Positions 32,226-64,000 of a DNA stretch of 64,000 nt are shown here, piece after piece. This DNA comes from Paenibacillus alginolyticus DSM 5050 = NBRC 15375. Its GTDB lineage: Bacteria; Bacillota; Bacilli; Paenibacillales; NBRC-103111. The notes below the pieces were generated by a model. That model saw nothing but the letters and a program-made list of their open reading frames with translations, did no database searches and was not told the DNA's origin. The stretch lies in the NCBI RefSeq assembly GCF_000422905.1, contig NZ_AUGY01000001.1:186001-250000 (forward strand). The letters run 5' to 3'. Numbering within the stretch: the first letter of the stretch is position 1; every line of letters starts with the position of its first letter. The position numbers were made by a program, and so were the translations under genes.

Positions 32226-32855
32226 TTGGCAAGACCAATCAATGAAGAAAAAAGACTGAAGCGGCGAAGTCGTATCCTAAAAGAAGCTGTTGTCCTGTTC
32301 GCGGAAAGTGGATATTCTAATACCACAACGGCTCTCATTGCGCAGAGTGTGGGAGTGTCTCCTGGAACCATATTTCAATATTTCCCTAACAAAGAAGCTT
32401 TATTCAACGCCGCTGTCCTTGAGCCGCTTGCTGATATTCAGGTGAAATCGCTTGCTTGTCTAAAAGAAGAGGGAACGCCAGGCGTATTAATTAAAAACAT
32501 GGTAGAAGAACAATTCAATCATATCTATTGCTATACAAATGAATTGCGGCTTGTTCAATATGTCTTAGGACAACGGATAAGATTTCCTGAACTTACACAG
32601 ATGGTCCTTGAAAGTACAAAAGTAATGACAGATACTATCGAATGCGTCTATGCCAAGGGACAGTTAATGGGAGAATTCAACAAAAACTTTTCTCCGGCAA
32701 TGATCTCTCGTGCCTACATCTCTTTCTTAAACGGAGTAGGTTTAACTCTAGGAGAAAGTATTATTCATCACCCCGAGTGGGAAAGCTTGAAGGGGCATGC
32801 CTTATATTTGTTCGCACCCATACAACATCAAGAAAAACAGGAGGAATTTGAATGA
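32226..32855 (+). CDS. TetR/AcrR family regulator
   Basis: About 209 residues with an N-terminal HTH (RILKEAVVLFAESGYSNTTTALIAQSVGVSPGTIFQYFPNKEALF) and a helical C-terminal domain. The TTG at 32226 follows GAGTGGG; a GTG at 32214 is an alternative without a ribosome site. It overlaps the next gene by ATGA, so it is coupled to the hydrolase and probably represses it from the palindrome upstream. Confidence 0.82.
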   Translation: MARPINEEKRLKRRSRILKEAVVLFAESGYSNTTTALIAQSVGVSPGTIFQYFPNKEALFNAAVLEPLADIQVKSLACLKEEGTPGVLIKNMVEEQFNHIYCYTNELRLVQYVLGQRIRFPELTQMVLESTKVMTDTIECVYAKGQLMGEFNKNFSPAMISRAYISFLNGVGLTLGESIIHHPEWESLKGHALYLFAPIQHQEKQEEFE

Positions 32856-33829
32856 GTCAAACATCATTACAACCAAATCTAACATCTAACACTCGTTTGA
32901 AAAAATGGCGGAAGATCTTATTGAGCCTAGGGATCGTGCTTTTGCTTGTGATGGCTCTTGTATTTTTTATATCTTATAAAGTAATAGACACCTTGTTGCA
33001 CCATCCTAGAGACACTAATGTCAGCTACGAATTGAATATCGATAAAACTCCCTACGAAGAGGTCGAGTTCAAGAGTTTGAAAAATGATAATACGATTAGA
33101 GGTTCCTTCTTTCCTGCAAGTGGTCTTTCTGGTAAAGCAAGTAATAAGACGATTATTGTCGTACATGGATATACGAGCAATCGTTTAGTCAAAGGGCGGA
33201 CCCCAAAGTTAGTAGAGCATTTCGTTCCGAAAGGCTACAATGTATTGGCATTTGACCTCAGCTCGCAAGGTAAATCCGATGGTGACTTGATTACACTGGG
33301 CCTCAATGAAAAATACGATTTGCTAGGAGCTGTAAGCTATCTAAAATCCAGAGACCATACGGGTGATAACATTGGAGTTATCGGCTTTTCAATGGGTGCT
33401 GCTACTTCTTTGCTAGCCGCAAGTGAAAGTGCTGATATCAAAGCCGTAATTGCGGATAGTCCTTTTCGTAATGCTGGTCTATTTCTGAGAGAGGGCTTGC
33501 CTTTCTTTTCAGGTTTACCTGCGTTTCCATTTAGTTATACATCGATATGGGTGGGTAAATGGGTCTTAAAGGTTGATTTTGATTCCGTATCTCCTATGGA
33601 TGCAGTAAAGAAGATGAAAGACAAGCCAGTTATGCTGATTCATGGAACTGGAGATCAGCAAATTAGTTATAAAAATACAGAAGCAATTTTTGAGTCATTA
33701 AAAGATGACCCATATGCAGAAGCATGGTACCCGCATAATACCGAGCATATCGATGCCATCAATCATTACCCCACTGAATATTTCCAAAGAGTAGATCATT
33801 TTATGGATAAGTATATAGGAAAAGAGTAG
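32852..33829 (+). CDS. Membrane-anchored alpha/beta hydrolase
   Basis: A 325-residue protein with one N-terminal transmembrane helix (about residues 26-48) and an extracellular alpha/beta-hydrolase domain: oxyanion HGYTSN, nucleophile elbow GFSMGAATS, acid region MLIHGTGDQQISY and the final His in NTEHIDAI. Similar to Bacillus YqkD/YjfP-type hydrolases. Substrate unknown. Translationally coupled to the TetR gene by ATGA and followed by a terminator. Confidence 0.87.
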   Translation: MSQTSLQPNLTSNTRLKKWRKILLSLGIVLLLVMALVFFISYKVIDTLLHHPRDTNVSYELNIDKTPYEEVEFKSLKNDNTIRGSFFPASGLSGKASNKTIIVVHGYTSNRLVKGRTPKLVEHFVPKGYNVLAFDLSSQGKSDGDLITLGLNEKYDLLGAVSYLKSRDHTGDNIGVIGFSMGAATSLLAASESADIKAVIADSPFRNAGLFLREGLPFFSGLPAFPFSYTSIWVGKWVLKVDFDSVSPMDAVKKMKDKPVMLIHGTGDQQISYKNTEAIFESLKDDPYAEAWYPHNTEHIDAINHYPTEYFQRVDHFMDKYIGKE

Positions 33830-33877: not shown

Positions 33878-33962
33878 TCTGCTGTCACTTGACAAAATGA
33901 TGTAGTAATTCGCTTAGCGTAATTTCATCATTTGTTGAAATCAAATCACGGGAGCAGGCTAT

Positions 33963-34474: not shown

Positions 34475-34690
34475 GTGAAAATGAAAGAAAATATGAAAGA
34501 AAATCGTTTGATAAATGAAAAATCCCCGTATCTTCTCCAACATGCATATAACCCAGTCGACTGGTATGCATGGGGAGAAGAAGCTTTCTCAAAAGCCGCA
34601 AGGGAAAGCAAGCCAGTATTTCTGTCTATAGGTTATTCCTAGCTTCGGCTAAAAAAGGTGATAGTTTTACATGTCATTGGTGTCACGATT
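34475..34690 (+). pseudogene. 5' fragment of a DUF255/YyaL-like thioredoxin-domain gene (copy 2)
   Basis: From a GTG after GAAGGGTG the frame reads [20 protein letters not shown] and [20 protein letters not shown] then LSIGYS and a stop. The expected next residues TCHWCH appear 29 bases later (34669-34686), so a 29-base insertion (34640-34668) splits the CxxC motif; after CHWCH the similarity ends. The gene is therefore interrupted and truncated. Confidence 0.7.
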
Positions 34691-34738: not shown

Positions 34739-35362
34739 ATGATTTTAATCAGGTACAAGCTCACTTACGATGAGGTGCGGCATAGATTTGAAAAGGAAGG
34801 GTATAGGCTGCTTTCTACAAAATACAAAAATGCAAAAAGCAATTTGATCGTGTTGTGTCCCTGCAGCCATGAATGGATAACGAACTTAAGCAACTTTGAT
34901 TCAGGGCGCAGGTGCAGTATTTGTTCCAGAAGTAAGAAATACGCCTTGGAAGAAGTGAAAATCATTTTTGCCAGGGAAGCATACCGGGTTCAAAATACCA
35001 TATATATCAACGAAAAAACGCCGATAAAAGTGGCTTGCCCCAATGGGCATGGGACAGCGATTAATCTGAACAATTTCTTGAACGGCAGACGATGCGGTTT
35101 GTGCAGTCGTATGAAAGCCAAGGAAGACAGGATGAAAAAGCTCGAAGTGAAGGCGAAGAGAAAGGAAAGGTCGCCGCGGCGTGAAGCGAGCGCAGATTAT
35201 TTAGTCGTTACAGACAGGACATCCAATGAGTTCGCTGATCAAATGAAGCCAGAATGGCGTGCCAAACTGAACGAGATGAGGAAAAATCTGAAGTCAGCGA
35301 ACAGGCATACTTACCGAGAATCAGAGCAACAAAATTTACGGAGGGCAGGTCCAAATGAATGA
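34739..35362 (+). CDS. Protein with two putative zinc-ribbon repeats
   Basis: Two copies of a roughly 65-residue unit: KLTYDEVRHRFEKEGYRLLS...VLCPCSHEWITNLSNFDSGRRCSICS, then YALEEVKIIFAREAYRVQNT...VACPNGHGTAINLNNFLNGRRCGLCS. Each has a C-x2-C/H knuckle and a C-x2-C knuckle, so each probably binds one zinc. A basic, Arg/Lys-rich C-terminal tail follows. This repeat (DUF723-like) is common in phage and homing-endonuclease-linked proteins that bind nucleic acid. The start is uncertain: the ATG at 34739 follows GGAAGGGG, but the gene begins right after a pseudogene. Possibly a DNA-binding accessory of the neighbouring defence region. Confidence 0.65.
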   Translation: MILIRYKLTYDEVRHRFEKEGYRLLSTKYKNAKSNLIVLCPCSHEWITNLSNFDSGRRCSICSRSKKYALEEVKIIFAREAYRVQNTIYINEKTPIKVACPNGHGTAINLNNFLNGRRCGLCSRMKAKEDRMKKLEVKAKRKERSPRREASADYLVVTDRTSNEFADQMKPEWRAKLNEMRKNLKSANRHTYRESEQQNLRRAGPNE

Positions 35363-35457
35363 CAGGCAGACCCTTTACTATATAGAAAGACTTTCAAATC
35401 TTTTTATTTAGCAATTATATTTAGAGAATTAAGTCGGGGCAGCGGGCATATGCATCG

Positions 35458-35544
35458 GTGATCGTGACAGAATTGGCAGACTCGCTGAATTCAGGTTCCT
35501 GTGTCAGCAATGACGTGGAGGGTCGAGTCCTCTCGACCGCACCA
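35458..35544 (+). tRNA. tRNA-Leu(CAG)-like gene, degenerate
   Basis: The length (87 with encoded CCA) and layout fit a class II tRNA: AATTGGCAGAC D-loop, TTCAGGT anticodon loop (CAG), a four-pair variable arm GTCA-GCAA-TGAC, T arm GGAGG-GTCGAGT-CCTCT, acceptor end CGACCGC-A-CCA. Defects are clear: the D stem does not pair, the anticodon stem (CTGAA/TCCTG) has two mismatches, T54 is G, and the acceptor (GTGATCG) has an A-C mismatch. A terminator follows. It is probably a decaying or element-borne tRNA rather than the cell's working tRNA-Leu. Confidence 0.6.
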
Positions 35545-35555
35545 TACTTACAAAC

Positions 35556-35588
35556 AAAACTCTTCAGAATATCTGGAGGGTTTTATTA
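35556..35588 (+). terminator. Terminator after the tRNA-like gene
   Basis: AAAACTCTTCAG and CTGGAGGGTTTT form a 12-pair stem (with G-U pairs) around AATAT, followed by ATTATTTT. This is the usual terminator form after Firmicute tRNA genes. Confidence 0.75.
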
Positions 35589-35677
35589 TTTTGACCGGTT
35601 CCGGGAAACATCTCTACGAGACAAAGTAGTTGAGTCAATTTGCTACTTGATAGATACAAAAAAAGGAATATGACTGT

Positions 35678-35705
35678 GATTGTCGAAATCTAGTAATGCT
35701 ATAAA
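35678..35705 (+). promoter_or_regulatory. Putative extended -10 promoter of the SIR2-Argonaute gene
   Basis: TGCTATAAA is an extended -10 element with GATTGT 16 bases upstream; the -35 is weak. Confidence 0.4.
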
Positions 35706-35767
35706 CATTAACCTAAATAGAATGCGAACCAGGTTATTACTTCCGTTTAGTGATTGGGAGAGTAAGT

Positions 35768-38700
35768 ATGAACTATATCCTTAAATACGATGAATTTATA
35801 CGATCGATTAAACAGAATAAAGACATTGAGCATTCGATGCTTCTTGGAGCTGGGGCATCAATCGAGTCAGGGGTGCAGTCAGCTTCAGATTGCATTTGGG
35901 AATGGAAAAAAGATATTTTCTTGTCGCAAAACCCGCATCTGATTGAGCAATATAAGAATATCAAAATCGACAGTGTTCGAGATGCAATACAGAAATGGTT
36001 AGATAGTCAAGGAACTTTCCCAAGAATAAATGATGATTCGGAATATTCCTATTACGCTGAAACTGCTTATAGAATTCCCGGTGATAGGCGCAGATATTTC
36101 CAGAAACTTTCTGAAGGGAAAAATCCAAGTTTAGGTTATAATCTAATAGGTCTACTCGCTGAAAGCGGAATGGTTAGAAGTGTCTGGACGACAAATTTTG
36201 ATGGTTTGATGGTTAAAGCTGCTTATTTGAATAACCTCACTCCAATAGAAATTACATTAGAATCACAAGATAGAATTTTTAGAAGTTCCAACGCAAAAGA
36301 GTTACTCTGTATTTCTCTCCACGGGGACTATAAATACGGGGATTTAAAAAATACATCAACTGAACTAGATACACAGAGTAATATTTTCAAAAAAGCATTG
36401 AAGAATGAACTCGCAACTAGAAATTTGTTAGTAATTGGATACAGTGGAAGAGACAAATCCCTGATGGAAGCTTTGAAAGAAGCATATATTGAAAAAGGTG
36501 CGGGTAGGATTTATTGGTGTGGTTATGGTCATGAAATAAATGAATCGGTACGGATGTTTATAGAATCAATAAATAGTACTGGTAGAGAAGCATATTATGT
36601 TCCAACAGATGGATTTGACAAGACTATGTTGCATGTTGCAGTAGCTTGTTTTGAAAATGATACTAATTACCTTAATGTGATTAAGCAATTAAAATCAAAG
36701 GCCTCAGTTGGGAATCACAATACAAAAGCTTTTGATTGCAATATAGCGAGCTATAACAAAATTGTTAAGAGCAATTTATTGCCGTTCACCCTGCCAAAGT
36801 CGTGCTTTCAGTTTAAACTTAAGTATGAGAAAGAAGAAACGTCGTGGAACGTGTGCAAAGAACTAATTAACCATGACATAGTCGCAGTCCCTTTCAATAA
36901 TATGATTTATGCATTTGGAACTAAAGAGAATATATCTTATGTTTGTGGAACAAGGTTATTAACTGAAATCGTGCATACTCCACTAACTCGCGATAGCTTA
37001 ATGAGTAACTCAGCATTTAAAGATCTAATATTAAGAACGCTTACAATTATTTTGGCTTCAAAAAGTGGCTTCGAATGTAATTACAAGAATAAAATTTGGG
37101 ACAGAAATCAAAAGTATAGTAGTTTCATTAATAATAGAAGGATAGAAGCATATAAAGGAATAGAGTTATCATTGTTTTTTGATCAAAAATATTCATACAT
37201 CTCAATGATTCCTTCTTGTATACTTCCAGATGACATTAAACTTGCTAAGGAAGACTATAAAGAATTTACCAGGACATTTAATATATTTATTAACGGTAAG
37301 AAACCAAATCCGAATTATTGGAATTACCTTGATATTTGGAAAAGGCAAATTTTTGGGGGAAAGGCGATAAAGGCAGAGTACCCAATTGGTTCGGGAAGTA
37401 ATTTTGATTTTTCAATCAGTTCCAATAATCTTTATATTGGGATTAAGAGCGGTGGAAGTCAATCGGACTCTATCCAATTACCCGAACACGTTAATCCAAA
37501 ACAAATATTACATAAGGGTATGGAGTATCCGGACCCACAACTTCTTTTTTACAATCCATTTCAGAAAAGAATGGTCAGGGACTTTCATCCAATGAGGGGG
37601 TTAGTGCAGAACCAACCATATGATTATTTTATGAACAATGAAGTGTTTAAACCTTATATTAATATAGGTGTTGTTTGTCCTGGAAAACATTCAGAAGAGT
37701 TCTATAGATTTTTAAACTCGTTAAATCAACGTCATGAAACGAAACACAATCTAGATTATTTGATCACTTATCCTAATTTTTTTTCCATTTATGGAGTAAC
37801 ATTAAATATCCCGGCTGTAGGGAGTTCTTCGTGGGTAGATGTCAAAGTGGATTCAGATCATGATTTCAAAGAAGCGGCCTTAGCGTTCGGGAAGAAAATA
37901 ACCCAAAAAATTGATCAATTAAATAGCCAACAGAATATAGATGTTATTGTCATCTATGTACCCCAAGATTTTGAATATTTCACATCGTTTAATGATGGTA
38001 ACACTCACTTCGATTTACATGATTTTGTAAAAGCATTTGCTGTTCAGAAAAACATATCCACACAGTTCATACGGCAAAAAACGATTGATAGTGCATTAGA
38101 TTGTCAGATAGCGTGGTCTCTATCACTTGCAATATATGTAAAGACACTTCGAACTCCTTGGATATTAACTAATTTAAGAAATGATACAGCTTTTGCAGGA
38201 ATAGGATATAGTATTGATCATTATTCAAATAGTAAGCAGCAAATGGTTATTGGTTGTAGTCACATTTATTCATCAGATGGACAGGGGCTTAAATATAAAC
38301 TCTCTAAGATAAATGATGTAACTTTTGATAAAAAGAAGAATCCTTATTTGTCGGAAAATGAAGCTTATCAACTCGGACTTAATATAAAGGAGTTATTCTA
38401 TAAATCATTTAGTGAACTTCCGAAGCGTGTTGTCATACACAAGCGTACTCCGTTTAAAAAGCCAGAGATAAAGGGTATTGTAGAAAGTTTACATTATGTA
38501 GGAATTACCGATATAGACCTGGTGGAAATTTCCTATGAAGATAGTGCGAGATTTTTTGAAGTAAATTCTACTTTTAATATTGACGATTTCCCTGTAAGAA
38601 GAGGGTGCTGCTTCCCAATTAATAATGATACTGCATATTTATTTACACATGGTATAGCGCCTTCAGTTAGAAATCCGAAATTCCGGTATTTCCAAGGCGG

Positions 38701-38923
38701 AAAAAGTATACCCGTTCCATTAAAGATCACTCGGCATTTTGGTAATGGGGACATTGGACAAATTGCTACAGAAATATTAGGTTTATCTAAAATGAATTGG
38801 AACAGCTTTGAATTATATTCAAAGCTCCCCTGTACTTTGCAGTCTTCTAATGATATCGCGAAAATCGGGTGGCTACTGTCGCAATTTGATGGTGTTGTAT
38901 ATGATTATCGTAACTTCATGTAA
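35768..38923 (+). CDS. Single-chain SIR2-APAZ-short prokaryotic Argonaute (NAD+-depleting immune effector)
   Basis: A 1051-residue protein. Residues 1-290 are a SIR2 domain: GAGAS (27-31), TTNFD (141-145), LHGDY with catalytic His185, and VIGYSGRD (222-229). The middle part (about 330-600) fits an APAZ region. The C-terminal 420 residues are MID-PIWI: the guide 5'-phosphate pocket pattern QKNISTQFIRQKT (about 758-771), the PIWI core AGIGYSIDHY (about 807-816), VVIHKRTPF and the C-terminal YDYRNFM. The first PIWI catalytic Asp is replaced by Gly, as in slicing-inactive short Argonautes. By analogy with SPARSA, guide-directed detection of invader nucleic acid would switch on NADase activity and kill or arrest the cell. 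GGGAGAG precedes the ATG. A+T-richer than the core genes, which suggests transfer. Confidence 0.88.
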   Translation: MNYILKYDEFIRSIKQNKDIEHSMLLGAGASIESGVQSASDCIWEWKKDIFLSQNPHLIEQYKNIKIDSVRDAIQKWLDSQGTFPRINDDSEYSYYAETAYRIPGDRRRYFQKLSEGKNPSLGYNLIGLLAESGMVRSVWTTNFDGLMVKAAYLNNLTPIEITLESQDRIFRSSNAKELLCISLHGDYKYGDLKNTSTELDTQSNIFKKALKNELATRNLLVIGYSGRDKSLMEALKEAYIEKGAGRIYWCGYGHEINESVRMFIESINSTGREAYYVPTDGFDKTMLHVAVACFENDTNYLNVIKQLKSKASVGNHNTKAFDCNIASYNKIVKSNLLPFTLPKSCFQFKLKYEKEETSWNVCKELINHDIVAVPFNNMIYAFGTKENISYVCGTRLLTEIVHTPLTRDSLMSNSAFKDLILRTLTIILASKSGFECNYKNKIWDRNQKYSSFINNRRIEAYKGIELSLFFDQKYSYISMIPSCILPDDIKLAKEDYKEFTRTFNIFINGKKPNPNYWNYLDIWKRQIFGGKAIKAEYPIGSGSNFDFSISSNNLYIGIKSGGSQSDSIQLPEHVNPKQILHKGMEYPDPQLLFYNPFQKRMVRDFHPMRGLVQNQPYDYFMNNEVFKPYINIGVVCPGKHSEEFYRFLNSLNQRHETKHNLDYLITYPNFFSIYGVTLNIPAVGSSSWVDVKVDSDHDFKEAALAFGKKITQKIDQLNSQQNIDVIVIYVPQDFEYFTSFNDGNTHFDLHDFVKAFAVQKNISTQFIRQKTIDSALDCQIAWSLSLAIYVKTLRTPWILTNLRNDTAFAGIGYSIDHYSNSKQQMVIGCSHIYSSDGQGLKYKLSKINDVTFDKKKNPYLSENEAYQLGLNIKELFYKSFSELPKRVVIHKRTPFKKPEIKGIVESLHYVGITDIDLVEISYEDSARFFEVNSTFNIDDFPVRRGCCFPINNDTAYLFTHGIAPSVRNPKFRYFQGGKSIPVPLKITRHFGNGDIGQIATEILGLSKMNWNSFELYSKLPCTLQSSNDIAKIGWLLSQFDGVVYDYRNFM

Positions 38924-39311: not shown

Positions 39312-40181
39312 TCATTTGGACTGTAGCTCGTACTCCACAGGCGTTTTATAACCGAGAGCGGAGTGCATGCGTTTGGTGTTATAAAACATTTCGATATATT
39401 CGAAAATAGCCCGTTTCGCTTCCTCTGCGTTGCCAAACTTTGTATCATGCATGAGTTCGCGTTTTAATGTCTTATAAAAAGACTCCATGACTGCATTGTC
39501 ATAAGGATTGCCCCGTCTGGACATGCTGATCATCGCTCCATAGCTTTTAACAATGGCCTGAAACCGCCTGCTGGTATATTGCGAACCACGGTCGGTATGA
39601 ATCATGAGACCGACAGGAGGATGTTCCTTGTGTATCGCCTGCTTAAATGCGTCGATCACCAACTGATCGGTCATTCGGGTTTGCATGGCCCATCCCACGA
39701 CTTTTCTTGAGAATACATCGATCCATACCGCCAAATACAGAAAACCACCGGTCTGCAAGGGAATGTAGGTAATGTCACCGACCCATAAGATGTGCTTGGT
39801 CTTGGTATCAAAAACCCGTTTGACCAGGTTTTCAGCGATACCTTCAGCGGAGGGCTTGCGGGACATCACTTTCTTTTTTCGCCAGGGCAGGGCCGCCAGC
39901 CCAACTTGCTGCATATGCCGTGCCACTCGGTTTTTACTCGTGAACTTACCACGGCGGCACAGTTCCAACGCGATGCGGGGACTGCCGTAACGCCCTTTAA
40001 ACTCGGCATAAATCTTGTGGATATCCTCGATGAGAATTTCGCTGTCGATTGCGCGGTTGCTTTTGCCACGTTTTAACCAGTCGTAGTAAGCTTGCCGGCT
40101 GACCTTAAGCAGATCGCATAACCGTTTTACGGAGTACTTCTTGGTGTTTTTCCGGATGAAGGTGTATTTGACTTCTCCCAC
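39312..40181 (-). CDS. IS3-family transposase, OrfB (DDE integrase)
   Basis: 289 residues: HTH_21-type start (VKRLCDLLKVSRQAYYDWLKRG), then a retroviral-integrase-like rve domain: WVGDITYIPLQTGGFLYLAVWID (first Asp), MIHTDRGSQYTSRRF (second Asp) and SMSRRGNPYDNAVMESFYKTLKRE (Glu). All three catalytic acids are present, so it looks functional. It is normally made as an OrfAB fusion by -1 frameshifting from orfA; the free OrfB start is a GTG. Confidence 0.92.
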   Translation of the reverse strand: MGEVKYTFIRKNTKKYSVKRLCDLLKVSRQAYYDWLKRGKSNRAIDSEILIEDIHKIYAEFKGRYGSPRIALELCRRGKFTSKNRVARHMQQVGLAALPWRKKKVMSRKPSAEGIAENLVKRVFDTKTKHILWVGDITYIPLQTGGFLYLAVWIDVFSRKVVGWAMQTRMTDQLVIDAFKQAIHKEHPPVGLMIHTDRGSQYTSRRFQAIVKSYGAMISMSRRGNPYDNAVMESFYKTLKRELMHDTKFGNAEEAKRAIFEYIEMFYNTKRMHSALGYKTPVEYELQSK

Positions 40182-40462
40182 CGCTTCGAGTATTCCTGAA
40201 ACTTTTTTAGGATTTCATTTTCGAGTTGCAGCTCGTCCACACGTTTTTGCAGTCGCTGGATCTCCAGTTCGGTGTTAGGCACAGGAACGCCATTGCCTGT
40301 AAAGGCTTTGTCGCCATACTGCTCGTATTCGTACACCCACCGACTCAACATCGTCGGAATGATGCCCAGCGATTTTGCCACATGGGAGACCTTTCTTCGT
40401 TCCTCGAGCACCTGTAAGACAGCTTCCACTTTAAAAGCCTTGTCGTACTTTCTTCGCTTCAA
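40127..40462 (-). CDS. IS3-family transposase, OrfA (HTH)
   Basis: About 111 residues from a TTG start eight bases after AAAGGGG. It begins KRRKYDKAFKVEAVLQVLEE with a helix-turn-helix (VSHVAKSLGIIPTMLSRWVYEYEQYG) and a leucine-zipper-like coiled coil (LEIQRLQKRVDELQLENEIL). It binds the element ends and multimerises. It overlaps orfB by 55 bases. Confidence 0.88.
   Translation of the reverse strand: MKRRKYDKAFKVEAVLQVLEERRKVSHVAKSLGIIPTMLSRWVYEYEQYGDKAFTGNGVPVPNTELEIQRLQKRVDELQLENEILKKFQEYSKRWEKSNTPSSGKTPRSTP
40202..40208 (-). other. A-AAA-AAG slippery heptamer for -1 frameshift in orfA
   Basis: In the orfA frame the codons are CTA AAA AAG, giving the classic A_AAA_AAG slip site; after a -1 slip the frame reads VSGILEAVGEVKYTF, straight into OrfB. 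It lies just before the overlap with orfB. Confidence 0.8.
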
Positions 40463-40546
40463 AGAAACAACCCCTTTGCACAAGAGTATGACTTGGTCTT
40501 AACCTTGTGTAAAGAGATTTGTGGGAGGTCCATTTAATAAAAAGTT

Positions 40547-42000
40547 GGGAGTGTACAAACTTTTGTGTAAATGGTTTTTCCTAAAGCAAACGTCAAAGGC
40601 TTTATATGGAGGGGCGGGCATGATAAGCTAAATGGCCTGGCGATGCGAGTTAACGAGGCATCGCTTATCGCAAGGAATCATGCCCGTAGAGGCTCCATGT
40701 CAAGCCGGCTCAACCTTACGGTTAGAGAGGCAAATCCAGCGGAACACGTTCGGGGAACAGAATGGCTAATTGGGTAAGGCACAGGTTCCAATTTAGCACG
40801 GAGTGACCCCACTTTTTCATCACCTCAACGGTTGCTAAATAGATGATTTTTCGGAGTGCATCATCCGTTGGATAAGCCGTTTTGGTCTTGGTGACTTTAC
40901 GCAGCTGTCGATGATACCCTTCAATGGTGTTGGTTGTGTACACGATCTTGCGAATCTCCGCGGGATAACGAAAATAGGAGGTGAGTTCGTCCCAGTTGTT
41001 CTGCCAGGAGCGGATAACAATCGGGTACTTTTTCTCCCAATTTTCTTTGAAGATCAGGAAAGCCAACTCCGCTTCTTCTAAGGTTAACGCTTGATACACG
41101 GGCTTTAAGTCGGCCATGATCGCTGCCTGATCCTTCTTCGCTACATACTTGAGCGTATTTCGAATCTGGTGGATCACACAAGATTGGATCTGTGTTTTCG
41201 GAAATACGCTGGCCGCCGCCTCAGAGAAACCGGACAATCCATCCTTGCAGGCGATCAGGATATCCGAAACGCCTCGGTTTTTGAGCTCTGTACATACGTT
41301 CAGCCAGAAACTTGCGCTCTCATTCTCACCAATCCATATCCCTAATATATCCTTATGCCCACTCAGGTTAATGCCTAGTACACTGTATGCCGCTTTACTG
41401 ATGATCCGACTGTCCTGACGCACTTTAAAATGAATGGCGTCCAAAAACACAATCGGGTAGACAGAATCCAGGGTACGGCTCTGCCATTCGCTGACAAGCG
41501 GCATAATCTTATCCGTGACTTTACTGACCAGGGTGGGGGAAACTTCAATCCCGTATAAATCGTTCATGTGACTTTCAATATCCCGTGTTGTCATGCCCTT
41601 GGCATACAGGGCAACAATCTGATCTTCAATACTGTTGGAGGTCGTCTCATATTTCTTAATAATCTGCGGCTCGAATTCACCCTTGGGATCACGAGGAACA
41701 TCGAGTTCTGTTGGCCCGAATTTTGTTTTGACCGTTTTCTTCGAGTAACCATTGCGACTGTTTCCCATTCCATCTCCCGTGTTACTGTGCTTCTTATACC
41801 CGAGATGATCATCGATTTCTGCTTCAAAGACTTGTTGGATCGTATCCTTAAATAAGTCTCGCAGTTTCGTCTGGATGTCTTCCACAGACCGACAATCCTT
41901 CGCTAATTCCTTCACTACCTTTTCATAGGCTTCGTTCATAAATGGTCATCTGACTTTTACTTGGAAGTATTACCATTTACACAGAATTATTTACGCTCTC
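40547..42000 (-). mobile_element. IS256-family (mutator) insertion sequence, complete
   Basis: The left end GGGAGTGTACAAACTTTT and right end (read inward) GAGAGCGTAAATAATTCT are followed on both sides by GTGTAAATGG, giving imperfect inverted repeats of about 30 bp around one transposase gene; total length 1454 bp, within the range of the family. I could not find a clean 8-bp target duplication. It begins 14 bp after the IS3 element. Confidence 0.82.
40722..41939 (-). CDS. IS256-family mutator-type transposase
   Basis: 405 residues, full length. Catalytic Asp residues lie in YPIVFLDAIHFKV and ACKDGLSGFSEAAASVFP, with the family signature CVIHQIRNTLKYVAKKD and the catalytic Glu in TNTIEGYHRQLRKVTKTK. 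No frameshift is seen, so the element may still be active. It acts by DDE chemistry with a double-stranded circular intermediate, as known for the family. Confidence 0.94.
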   Translation of the reverse strand: MNEAYEKVVKELAKDCRSVEDIQTKLRDLFKDTIQQVFEAEIDDHLGYKKHSNTGDGMGNSRNGYSKKTVKTKFGPTELDVPRDPKGEFEPQIIKKYETTSNSIEDQIVALYAKGMTTRDIESHMNDLYGIEVSPTLVSKVTDKIMPLVSEWQSRTLDSVYPIVFLDAIHFKVRQDSRIISKAAYSVLGINLSGHKDILGIWIGENESASFWLNVCTELKNRGVSDILIACKDGLSGFSEAAASVFPKTQIQSCVIHQIRNTLKYVAKKDQAAIMADLKPVYQALTLEEAELAFLIFKENWEKKYPIVIRSWQNNWDELTSYFRYPAEIRKIVYTTNTIEGYHRQLRKVTKTKTAYPTDDALRKIIYLATVEVMKKWGHSVLNWNLCLTQLAILFPERVPLDLPL

Positions 42001-62627: not shown

Positions 62628-64000
62628 ATGAAAAAAATCGTTGAATCTTCGATGCAACGAGCAACAATTATTATTGTGTGCGTGGTTCTTATTTTAGCGT
62701 GGGGTGCCGTTTCCGCATTTCAAATGCAGCGAGATTATCTTCCTGGCATCAACAACACGACGTTAATGGTATCTTTACGCGCTTCTTCTTTACAAGCGGA
62801 TCAAATCAAACGAGATATCACATCACCGCTAGAGGATGTGATTCGAAAGACAGATGGACTAACGAATATAGAGACCACCTCTTACGATGGCGGGCTTCTT
62901 ATGAACCTTTATTATCCGATGAACTATGATATGAAAAAAGCGGAAAACCAGATCAAACAGGCTTTAAATGACGCAGAGCTGCCCGATGGCGTTAACCCAC
63001 CGGCCGTTACTCGACTGACGAACAGCACATTTCCTATACTTAGCTACAGTTTGACCTCCAACAATCAAAAAGTGGATGATATCACGCTTCAATCCACCGT
63101 CCAGGCTGAAATTGTGAAGCAGTTGAAATCTGTACCCGGCATATCCGATGTTCAGAATGTCGGCGGTGCAAAAAGCGGTTACGTTGTGTCTCTTCGTGCT
63201 AAGGACTTAGCCAAAAATAAGATGAGCGTCGACGATTTTAATAAGTCGATTTCAACGGATATTCCGAACCTTCAAGGCAATATTGCCAATGTAAAAGCTT
63301 CTTTTCCGGTGCGTGTCGAAGGCTGGGACCTGGGCGAACAGCAGTTGAACAGTCTTCCCATAAAAAATAAAGACGGGGATACGGTACCGCTGTCCGCGGT
63401 GGCGAACATTTCCAAATCGCTCAACGACGTCACGACCGTTTCTCGTACGGACGGAAAGGCAAGCGTGCTGATCAACGTGATCAAAACGCCTTCCGCGAAC
63501 ATCACCACAGTTGCGCAAAACGTAAAAGACCGAGTCAGCAACCTCACGGCCGTGAAAAACGGGGATGTTTCCATGAACCTCGTTTTGGATCGCGCGCATG
63601 ATTTGAATGCCTCCTTGATGGGACTTCTTCGGGAAGGCATTCTTGGCTGTGTTTTCTCGATGCTCTGCGTCCTGTTCTTTTTTCGGAATGTACGCTCTAC
63701 ACTGCTCATTGCCGTCTCTCTGCCGATTTCTCTCTTGGCCACAACCGCCATTTTGAAATCCATGGGCGTGACGCTAAATATTCTAACCATATCCGGTCTC
63801 ATTGTAGCGATGGGACGCATTGTGGATGATGCCATTGTCATACTGGATAATATGTACCGCAGAGTGCAGGAGAGCAAGGGAAAACCGATACTCGGAGTTC
63901 TGGCCGGAGCTGTTGTCGAGATGCTTCCGGCGATCTTTGCTTCCACTGCGACAACGATTGCGGTGTATGTACCGATTGCATTGGTTGGAGGCATTATCGG
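62628..64000 (+). CDS. RND-family efflux transporter (AcrB/SwrC-like), 3' end outside window
   Basis: The frame from ATG 62628 (GGAGAGGAG upstream) stays open to the window edge, giving 457 residues: first helix ATIIIVCVVLILAWGAVSAF, porter loops with VPGISDVQNVGGAKSGYVV, then the central helices LFFFRNVRSTLLIAVSLPISL and LIVAMGRIVDDAIVILDNMY, where the Asp residues of the proton relay (GRIVDDAIVILDN) are present. In Gram-positive bacteria SwrC-type RND pumps export lipopeptides or other hydrophobics without an outer-membrane channel. Here it may export metal or biocide; the substrate is not clear. It begins about 110 bases after a terminator. Confidence 0.88.
   Translation, partial: MKKIVESSMQRATIIIVCVVLILAWGAVSAFQMQRDYLPGINNTTLMVSLRASSLQADQIKRDITSPLEDVIRKTDGLTNIETTSYDGGLLMNLYYPMNYDMKKAENQIKQALNDAELPDGVNPPAVTRLTNSTFPILSYSLTSNNQKVDDITLQSTVQAEIVKQLKSVPGISDVQNVGGAKSGYVVSLRAKDLAKNKMSVDDFNKSISTDIPNLQGNIANVKASFPVRVEGWDLGEQQLNSLPIKNKDGDTVPLSAVANISKSLNDVTTVSRTDGKASVLINVIKTPSANITTVAQNVKDRVSNLTAVKNGDVSMNLVLDRAHDLNASLMGLLREGILGCVFSMLCVLFFFRNVRSTLLIAVSLPISLLATTAILKSMGVTLNILTISGLIVAMGRIVDDAIVILDNMYRRVQESKGKPILGVLAGAVVEMLPAIFASTATTIAVYVPIALVGGII

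Follow-up and report, generated by a model that had tools for sequence, protein, structure and literature searches.

The window analysed here, a 64,000-nucleotide stretch of the Paenibacillus alginolyticus genome (G000:C1:186001-250000), carries on the plus strand, at positions 35458-35544, a decayed full-length tRNA-Leu(CAG) gene that includes CCA (84-nt body at 35458-35541). We consider it very probable that this is an ordinary tRNA-Leu(CAG) unit decaying as a passenger within a mobile element, and that the Argonaute gene next to it is independent cargo. The initial annotation, which had reported a decayed tRNA-Leu(CAG) at this place, is confirmed in its observation and borne out in part in its interpretation. 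The genome is an 8.33-Mb draft of 214 contigs with an estimated contamination of 6.19%, in spite of which the flanks of contig C1 match the genus.

Identity and structure of the tRNA-Leu(CAG)-derived sequence

The tRNA-like sequence shares 81-86% identity with intact tRNA-Leu(CAG) genes in alignments of 85-134 nt, a likeness that is not due to chance. Scored with a covariance model made from 12 such intact genes, it reached 71 bits (E 2.4e-13, 869 kb searched), and the intact copies found on contigs C9 and C87 of the same genome reached 112.4 and 101.2 bits with the same model. ARAGORN called no tRNA in the window, and Rfam returned no match there at gathering score and none in 35300-35760 at E <= 10, so that neither tool gave the good tRNA score that would speak against decay. 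The genome search for an intact tRNA-Leu(CAG), which had been proposed as a check, recovered C9:35079-35165 and C87:815-899; since 150 of the 3750 first-look candidates were scored, the model search supports "at least two" intact copies. Clear tRNA homology, a disrupted cloverleaf and a function covered by intact copies, three marks of a tRNA pseudogene, are all found.

The structural defects listed in the initial annotation were recovered by our pair count: none of the three D-stem pairs forms, the anticodon stem keeps 3 of 5 pairs (two mismatches), the acceptor keeps 6 of 7 (one A-C mismatch), and standard position 54 is a G. The variable arm (5/5 pairs) and the CCA, described there as retained, are indeed retained, as are the T stem (5/5 pairs) and the anticodon loop TTCAGGT with its CAG. 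In the eight intact types used for comparison, the C9 copy included, all acceptor, D, anticodon and T pairs are present, and one variable-arm pair is missing in two of the eight. A second degenerate tRNA-Leu-like sequence was seen on contig C138 (L005:1505-1584; G000:C138:9947-10026, minus strand), with the loop CTTAGGA, 28.9 bits under the Rfam tRNA model and no ARAGORN call; it sits within a large tRNA array and adjoins a run of N.

The number of differences between the window sequence and the eight intact types ranges from 12 of 84 positions (G098 and a viral contig) up to 23 (the genus type). When an ancestor is reconstructed by taking, at each position, a residue present in some intact type such that all pairs form, eight substitutions would separate it from the window sequence, a count that depends on this reconstruction from related genes. 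Six of the 25 cloverleaf pairs are broken and none is compensated, and six of the eight changes run from G/C to A/T. When eight substitutions were placed at random 20,000 times, 3.7 pairs were broken on average and six or more in 9% of the draws; the comparison, which depends on the reconstructed ancestor and ignores mutation bias, gives no sign that the cloverleaf was protected. Six residues are private to the window sequence (absent from the eight intact types), and all of them lie in columns that are invariant across the 12 intact genes. The changes lean towards the 5' part (6 in 39 nt against 2 in 45 nt; Fisher P = 0.14, not significant), a lean for which a chimeric or scar origin would account better. 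That the sequence keeps its full length, its CCA, variable arm and T stem, and a strong terminator behind them, exceeds the minimum expected of debris, though recent decay explains it.

Terminator, upstream region and folding

An intrinsic terminator hairpin followed by a T-rich tail lies at 35556-35584 (plus strand). The terminator scan found this one site against 0.1 expected from shuffles, so that the intact terminator of the initial annotation stands, with 13 pairs (four of them G-C) instead of the 12 given there. On the upstream side, the motif scan found a promoter-like site TTCAAA-17-TATATT at 35393-35421 (plus strand, 9/12), which taken alone is not above chance (1 found, 1.4 expected); the corresponding scores upstream of the comparison tRNA-Leu(CAG) genes were 10 or 11 in 15 of 16 cases, and 8 for the element-borne copy on C9. 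The predicted fold of the window tRNA-like sequence is not a cloverleaf, and the folding energy is ordinary for the tRNA part (z = -1.16) and below that of shuffles when the terminator is included (z = -3.63). The G at position 54 permits a perfect seven-pair hairpin, GGTCGAG-TCCT-CTCGACC (window 35521-35538), in place of the T-arm pairing.

The 3' flank aligned with scores of 16.5-24 to the flanks of 11 of 12 chromosomal solitary tRNA-Leu(CAG) genes, versus 9.5 to that of the C9 element, and it therefore looks more like the terminator belonging to a chromosomal tRNA gene than like the flank of elements that target tRNA-Leu. The argument is a weak one, since G003 and viral contig L152 each have an intact gene with this type of variable arm whose 3' flank aligned with a score of 11 and 10, respectively, hardly above that of the C9 element.

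The carrier element in yyaL

From position 33934 to its end at 64000, the window is occupied by the left part of a block of about 97 kb that extends to C1:316974; three relatives (G034, G039 and G046) lack this block between the flanking genes. In these genomes the hydrolase-gene block (window 32852-33829) is separated by 0.3, 3.1 and 4.2 kb, respectively, from the stretch that resumes at C1:316975, a point inside yyaL. The left block is also present in G049 and G050, where the comparison stretch excludes the yyaL side. We read the cargo of the block as including copper, mercury and chromate resistance-type genes, and its conjugation-type genes have Replic_Relax, TcpC, TcpE, AAA_10 (VirB4-like in our reading) and TrwB-like domains. 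At its right end a serine recombinase (L151:5046-6581) lies beside yyaL, whose 5' end has been replaced. An integrase gene at the end, conjugation genes and an empty or shorter site in relatives are thus found together, as in an ICE. A relative of the serine recombinase at 80-81% identity occurs in one other genome of the 104 in the family (G094), also beside yyaL sequence, and weaker relatives are common (E <= 0.001 in 78 of 104 genomes, its own included).

The left end is more intricate. A 5' fragment of yyaL at 34475-34642 (plus strand), with its stop within the short inverted repeat TAGCTTCGGCTA, resembles the right end of the related G094 element, to which window positions 34495-34687 are 81% identical. 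This resemblance suggests that the end of an older element persists at 34495-34687 and that the present element begins near 34690, in which case the tRNA remnant would lie about 0.8 kb inside the left end. The G094 serine-recombinase element has only its end in common with the element in the window, and ARAGORN found no tRNA in the 108 kb around it. The suggestion of the initial annotation that the tRNA is carried by an element is thus supported, given that the sequence lies within a conjugation-type, serine-recombinase insertion of about 97 kb and is of a type foreign to the genomes of the genus.

Between this left end and the tRNA remnant there is an ORF of 207 amino acids (34739-35362, plus strand) with a CapR-homology domain in Pfam, whose relatives are found in phages at below 60% identity, a few of them annotated as homing or HNH endonucleases. 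None of the 103 other genomes of the family matches this ORF in DNA sequence, and a degenerate copy (71% at the DNA level) occurs in the C9 region of its own genome (L076:12860-13508), 2.7 kb past the C9 tRNA-Leu. A fragment of the CapR leader is seen at L076:15952-16000, and both copy and fragment are within 6 kb of the C9 tRNA-Leu(CAG). That the CapR gene and the tRNA form a single transposable unit was considered and rejected, since the homology with the C9 copy stops at 35313, before the tRNA. Further downstream, transposase matches indicate two probable insertion sequences at 39312-41939 (minus strand), one with an rve-type transposase (39312-40181) and a small ORF reaching 40483, the other with a Mutator-type transposase (40722-41939).

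Variable-arm type and possible donors

A 21-nt string that spans the variable arm and runs into the T stem was found in three of the 104 family genomes, namely at a single place in its own genome, at two places in G003, and in G098; none of the 29 other genus genomes examined has it, and it is carried by two other genera, so that the tRNA-Leu of the window looks foreign. In a longer form the string also occurs within an intact tRNA-Leu(CAG) of one viral contig, near a tyrosine integrase. This integrase is 28% identical to the one on C9, and a search of viral contigs with the C9 integrase gave no relative.

In regards to the source, a vertically inherited native copy was rejected, since the native solitary gene is the one split between C9:25432 and C131:1 and the genus type differs. 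The named phage and plasmid collections were likewise rejected as a source: 26 plasmid and 7 phage records match, and the best of those listed are at most 81% identical over 41-57% of the query. In the 104 family genomes, plasmids and phages, no donor element turned up that holds an intact copy at this position, nor, among the listed matches, a relative with the same broken sequence.

Element integration at tRNA-Leu(CAG) elsewhere in the family

The native gene of this genome has itself been a target. At C9:25432-25470 (L076:432-470) lies the 5' half of a native-type tRNA-Leu(CAG), cut in the anticodon loop, and the region upstream of it corresponds to the one upstream of the solitary gene in relatives of the genus. 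Contig C131 opens precisely at TTCAGGT, with the 3' half that is missing on C9 (C131:1-52; L183:1-52), and the two halves joined equal the intact G051 gene letter for letter, from which we infer that C9 and C131 were once neighbours. A complete tRNA-Leu(CAG) of another type is found with a tyrosine integrase at C9:35079 (L076:10079-11433). It thus appears that a tyrosine-integrase element split the native tRNA-Leu(CAG) and carries a complete copy of another type as replacement. In G094 (L180) and G019 (L182), too, a cut 5' half precedes a complete tRNA-Leu with an integrase of the same family as the one on C9, and in G012 a single complete tRNA-Leu gene occurs with such an integrase. Mobile elements have thus targeted tRNA-Leu(CAG) repeatedly in this bacterial family, and at least one of them, which splits the native gene and brings a complete copy of foreign type, offers a natural entry route for a foreign tRNA-Leu, which could later decay.

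The SIR2-Argonaute neighbour

About 205 nt downstream of the tRNA remnant, on the same strand, lies a full-length fused SIR2-pAgo gene of 1057 amino acids (35750-38923), which the PADLOC pAgo model matches with 1424 bits. Among the 104 family genomes it occurs in its own only, apart from a weak partial match (E 3e-4) in G018, and its 47 relatives in other species (L086-L132) are mostly from Bacteroidota by record title. The closest full-length relative found, from Ruminiclostridium, is 57% identical, and this distribution suggests that the gene was acquired by horizontal transfer.

No convincing tRNA-like sequence lies within 2 kb in any of the 47 related SIR2-Argonaute loci, of which four (L090, L104, L109 and L115) have under 400 nt of upstream sequence and the other 43 at least 1.1 kb. 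ARAGORN found tRNAs in four of the loci (L105, L111, L119 and L127), the nearest being 2.0 kb downstream of the gene (L105). The tRNA-Leu model matched three, with ordinary tRNAs 2.7 and 3.9 kb upstream in L119 and L127 and a chance-level match (E 9.9) 0.6 kb downstream of the Argonaute gene in L131. A blastn search with the tRNA and its terminator gave a best E of 0.064, for a stretch in L086 that lies 0.2 kb upstream, resembles a terminator and comes without a tRNA. A conserved RNA linked to the Argonaute was rejected on this ground. The passages searched in a study of long Argonautes linked to SIR2 (PMC10620215) mention tRNA a single time, in a different context. The position of the Argonaute beside the tRNA remnant looks like a coincidence between unrelated genes.

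Origin of the window copy

A mobile element would have picked up as cargo a whole tRNA-Leu(CAG) gene together with its terminator, of the type of other genera of the family, and this transcription unit would now lie near the left end of the conjugative-type element of about 97 kb in yyaL. Since intact tRNA-Leu(CAG) genes are present elsewhere in the genome, the window copy is probably under no selection; presumably unexpressed, it would be decaying mostly by G/C to A/T changes and would make no working tRNA, and its terminator and 3' half may survive because few changes have hit them so far. The adjoining Argonaute would be an independent cargo gene.

The sequence could instead be the scar of an attachment site, as the initial annotation had offered in speaking of integration into a tRNA gene. 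A tyrosine-integrase element would have recombined at the TTCAGGT loop, joining its own 5' half to a chromosomal 3' half with terminator, and the product would later have moved with the island. Such an event is favoured by the elements of a single integrase family that sit at tRNA-Leu(CAG) in this genome, G094, G019 and G012, the first three of which have a native gene cut in its anticodon loop, and also by the more changed 5' part and the degenerate CapR copy beyond the C9 tRNA-Leu. However, the 5' lean is not significant, the CapR homology ends before the tRNA, and the recombinase that the present element carries next to yyaL is of the serine type. Within C1:186001-330000 we found no relative of the C9 integrase, no partner fragment of a tRNA beyond 11-nt chance words, no repeat, and no tyrosine integrase among the 45 Pfam-scanned proteins (a subset of the ORFs), though such an integrase could have been lost from the island. 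With no integrase or partner fragment nearby and a 3' flank more like that of chromosomal genes, we rank a scar below passenger decay and regard it as unlikely.

Functional pseudo-tRNAs are known in Bacillus. A functional tRNA-like RNA that does not take part in translation, for instance a decoy for tRNA-targeting toxins or enzymes (a decoy had also been proposed initially) or a regulator read by T-box leaders, would fit the full length with CCA, the intact variable arm and T stem and the strong terminator, but it is very improbable with the D stem gone and the anticodon stem and acceptor broken and uncompensated, a promoter-like site no better than chance, a broken sequence unshared among the listed matches, and an ordinary folding energy of the tRNA part. 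That the sequence is a guide source or a nucleic-acid ligand of the SIR2-Argonaute, the remaining proposal of the initial annotation, is suggested by adjacency on the same strand and finds no support in the 47 related loci; we consider it hardly credible. A non-cloverleaf tRNA-Leu-like RNA, made of an acceptor-T arm hairpin, variable arm and CCA and bound by the SIR2-Argonaute or by tRNA-cleaving phage or host enzymes, is a highly improbable variant; if it were true, the defence gene would be triggered by, or would buffer, damage to or binding of tRNA. If the passenger copy is debris, as we favour, it is a caution against assigning function to the neighbours of defence genes.

Comparison with known systems

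The closest counterparts of the window copy are the intact solitary tRNA-Leu(CAG) genes of the same family in G098 (contig C45) and G003 (contig C7), which are alike in length, anticodon, variable arm (GTCAGCAATGAC) and nearby terminator. The window copy differs from them by 12-13 substitutions of 84, with D, anticodon and acceptor stems broken. The element-borne tRNA-Leu(CAG) of the same genome (C9:35079-35165) is, like the window copy, complete, of a non-genus type and on a mobile element; unlike it, the C9 copy is intact, adjoins its integrase and apparently replaces the split native gene.

Among the open-licence papers listed in our literature searches, no report of a decayed element-borne tRNA-Leu beside an Argonaute appeared. 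The integration of islands into tRNA genes, which splits and restores the gene, is well described (Islander, PMC4383910), and so are the non-canonical or partial tRNA sequences made by mobile elements (PMC9897764). The window copy is likewise a non-canonical tRNA sequence tied to a mobile element, whereas the remnants described there are boundary fragments with a restored gene at the other end and the window copy is full-length and internal to its element. A decayed full-length tRNA copy inside an element is thus a small variation on known themes.
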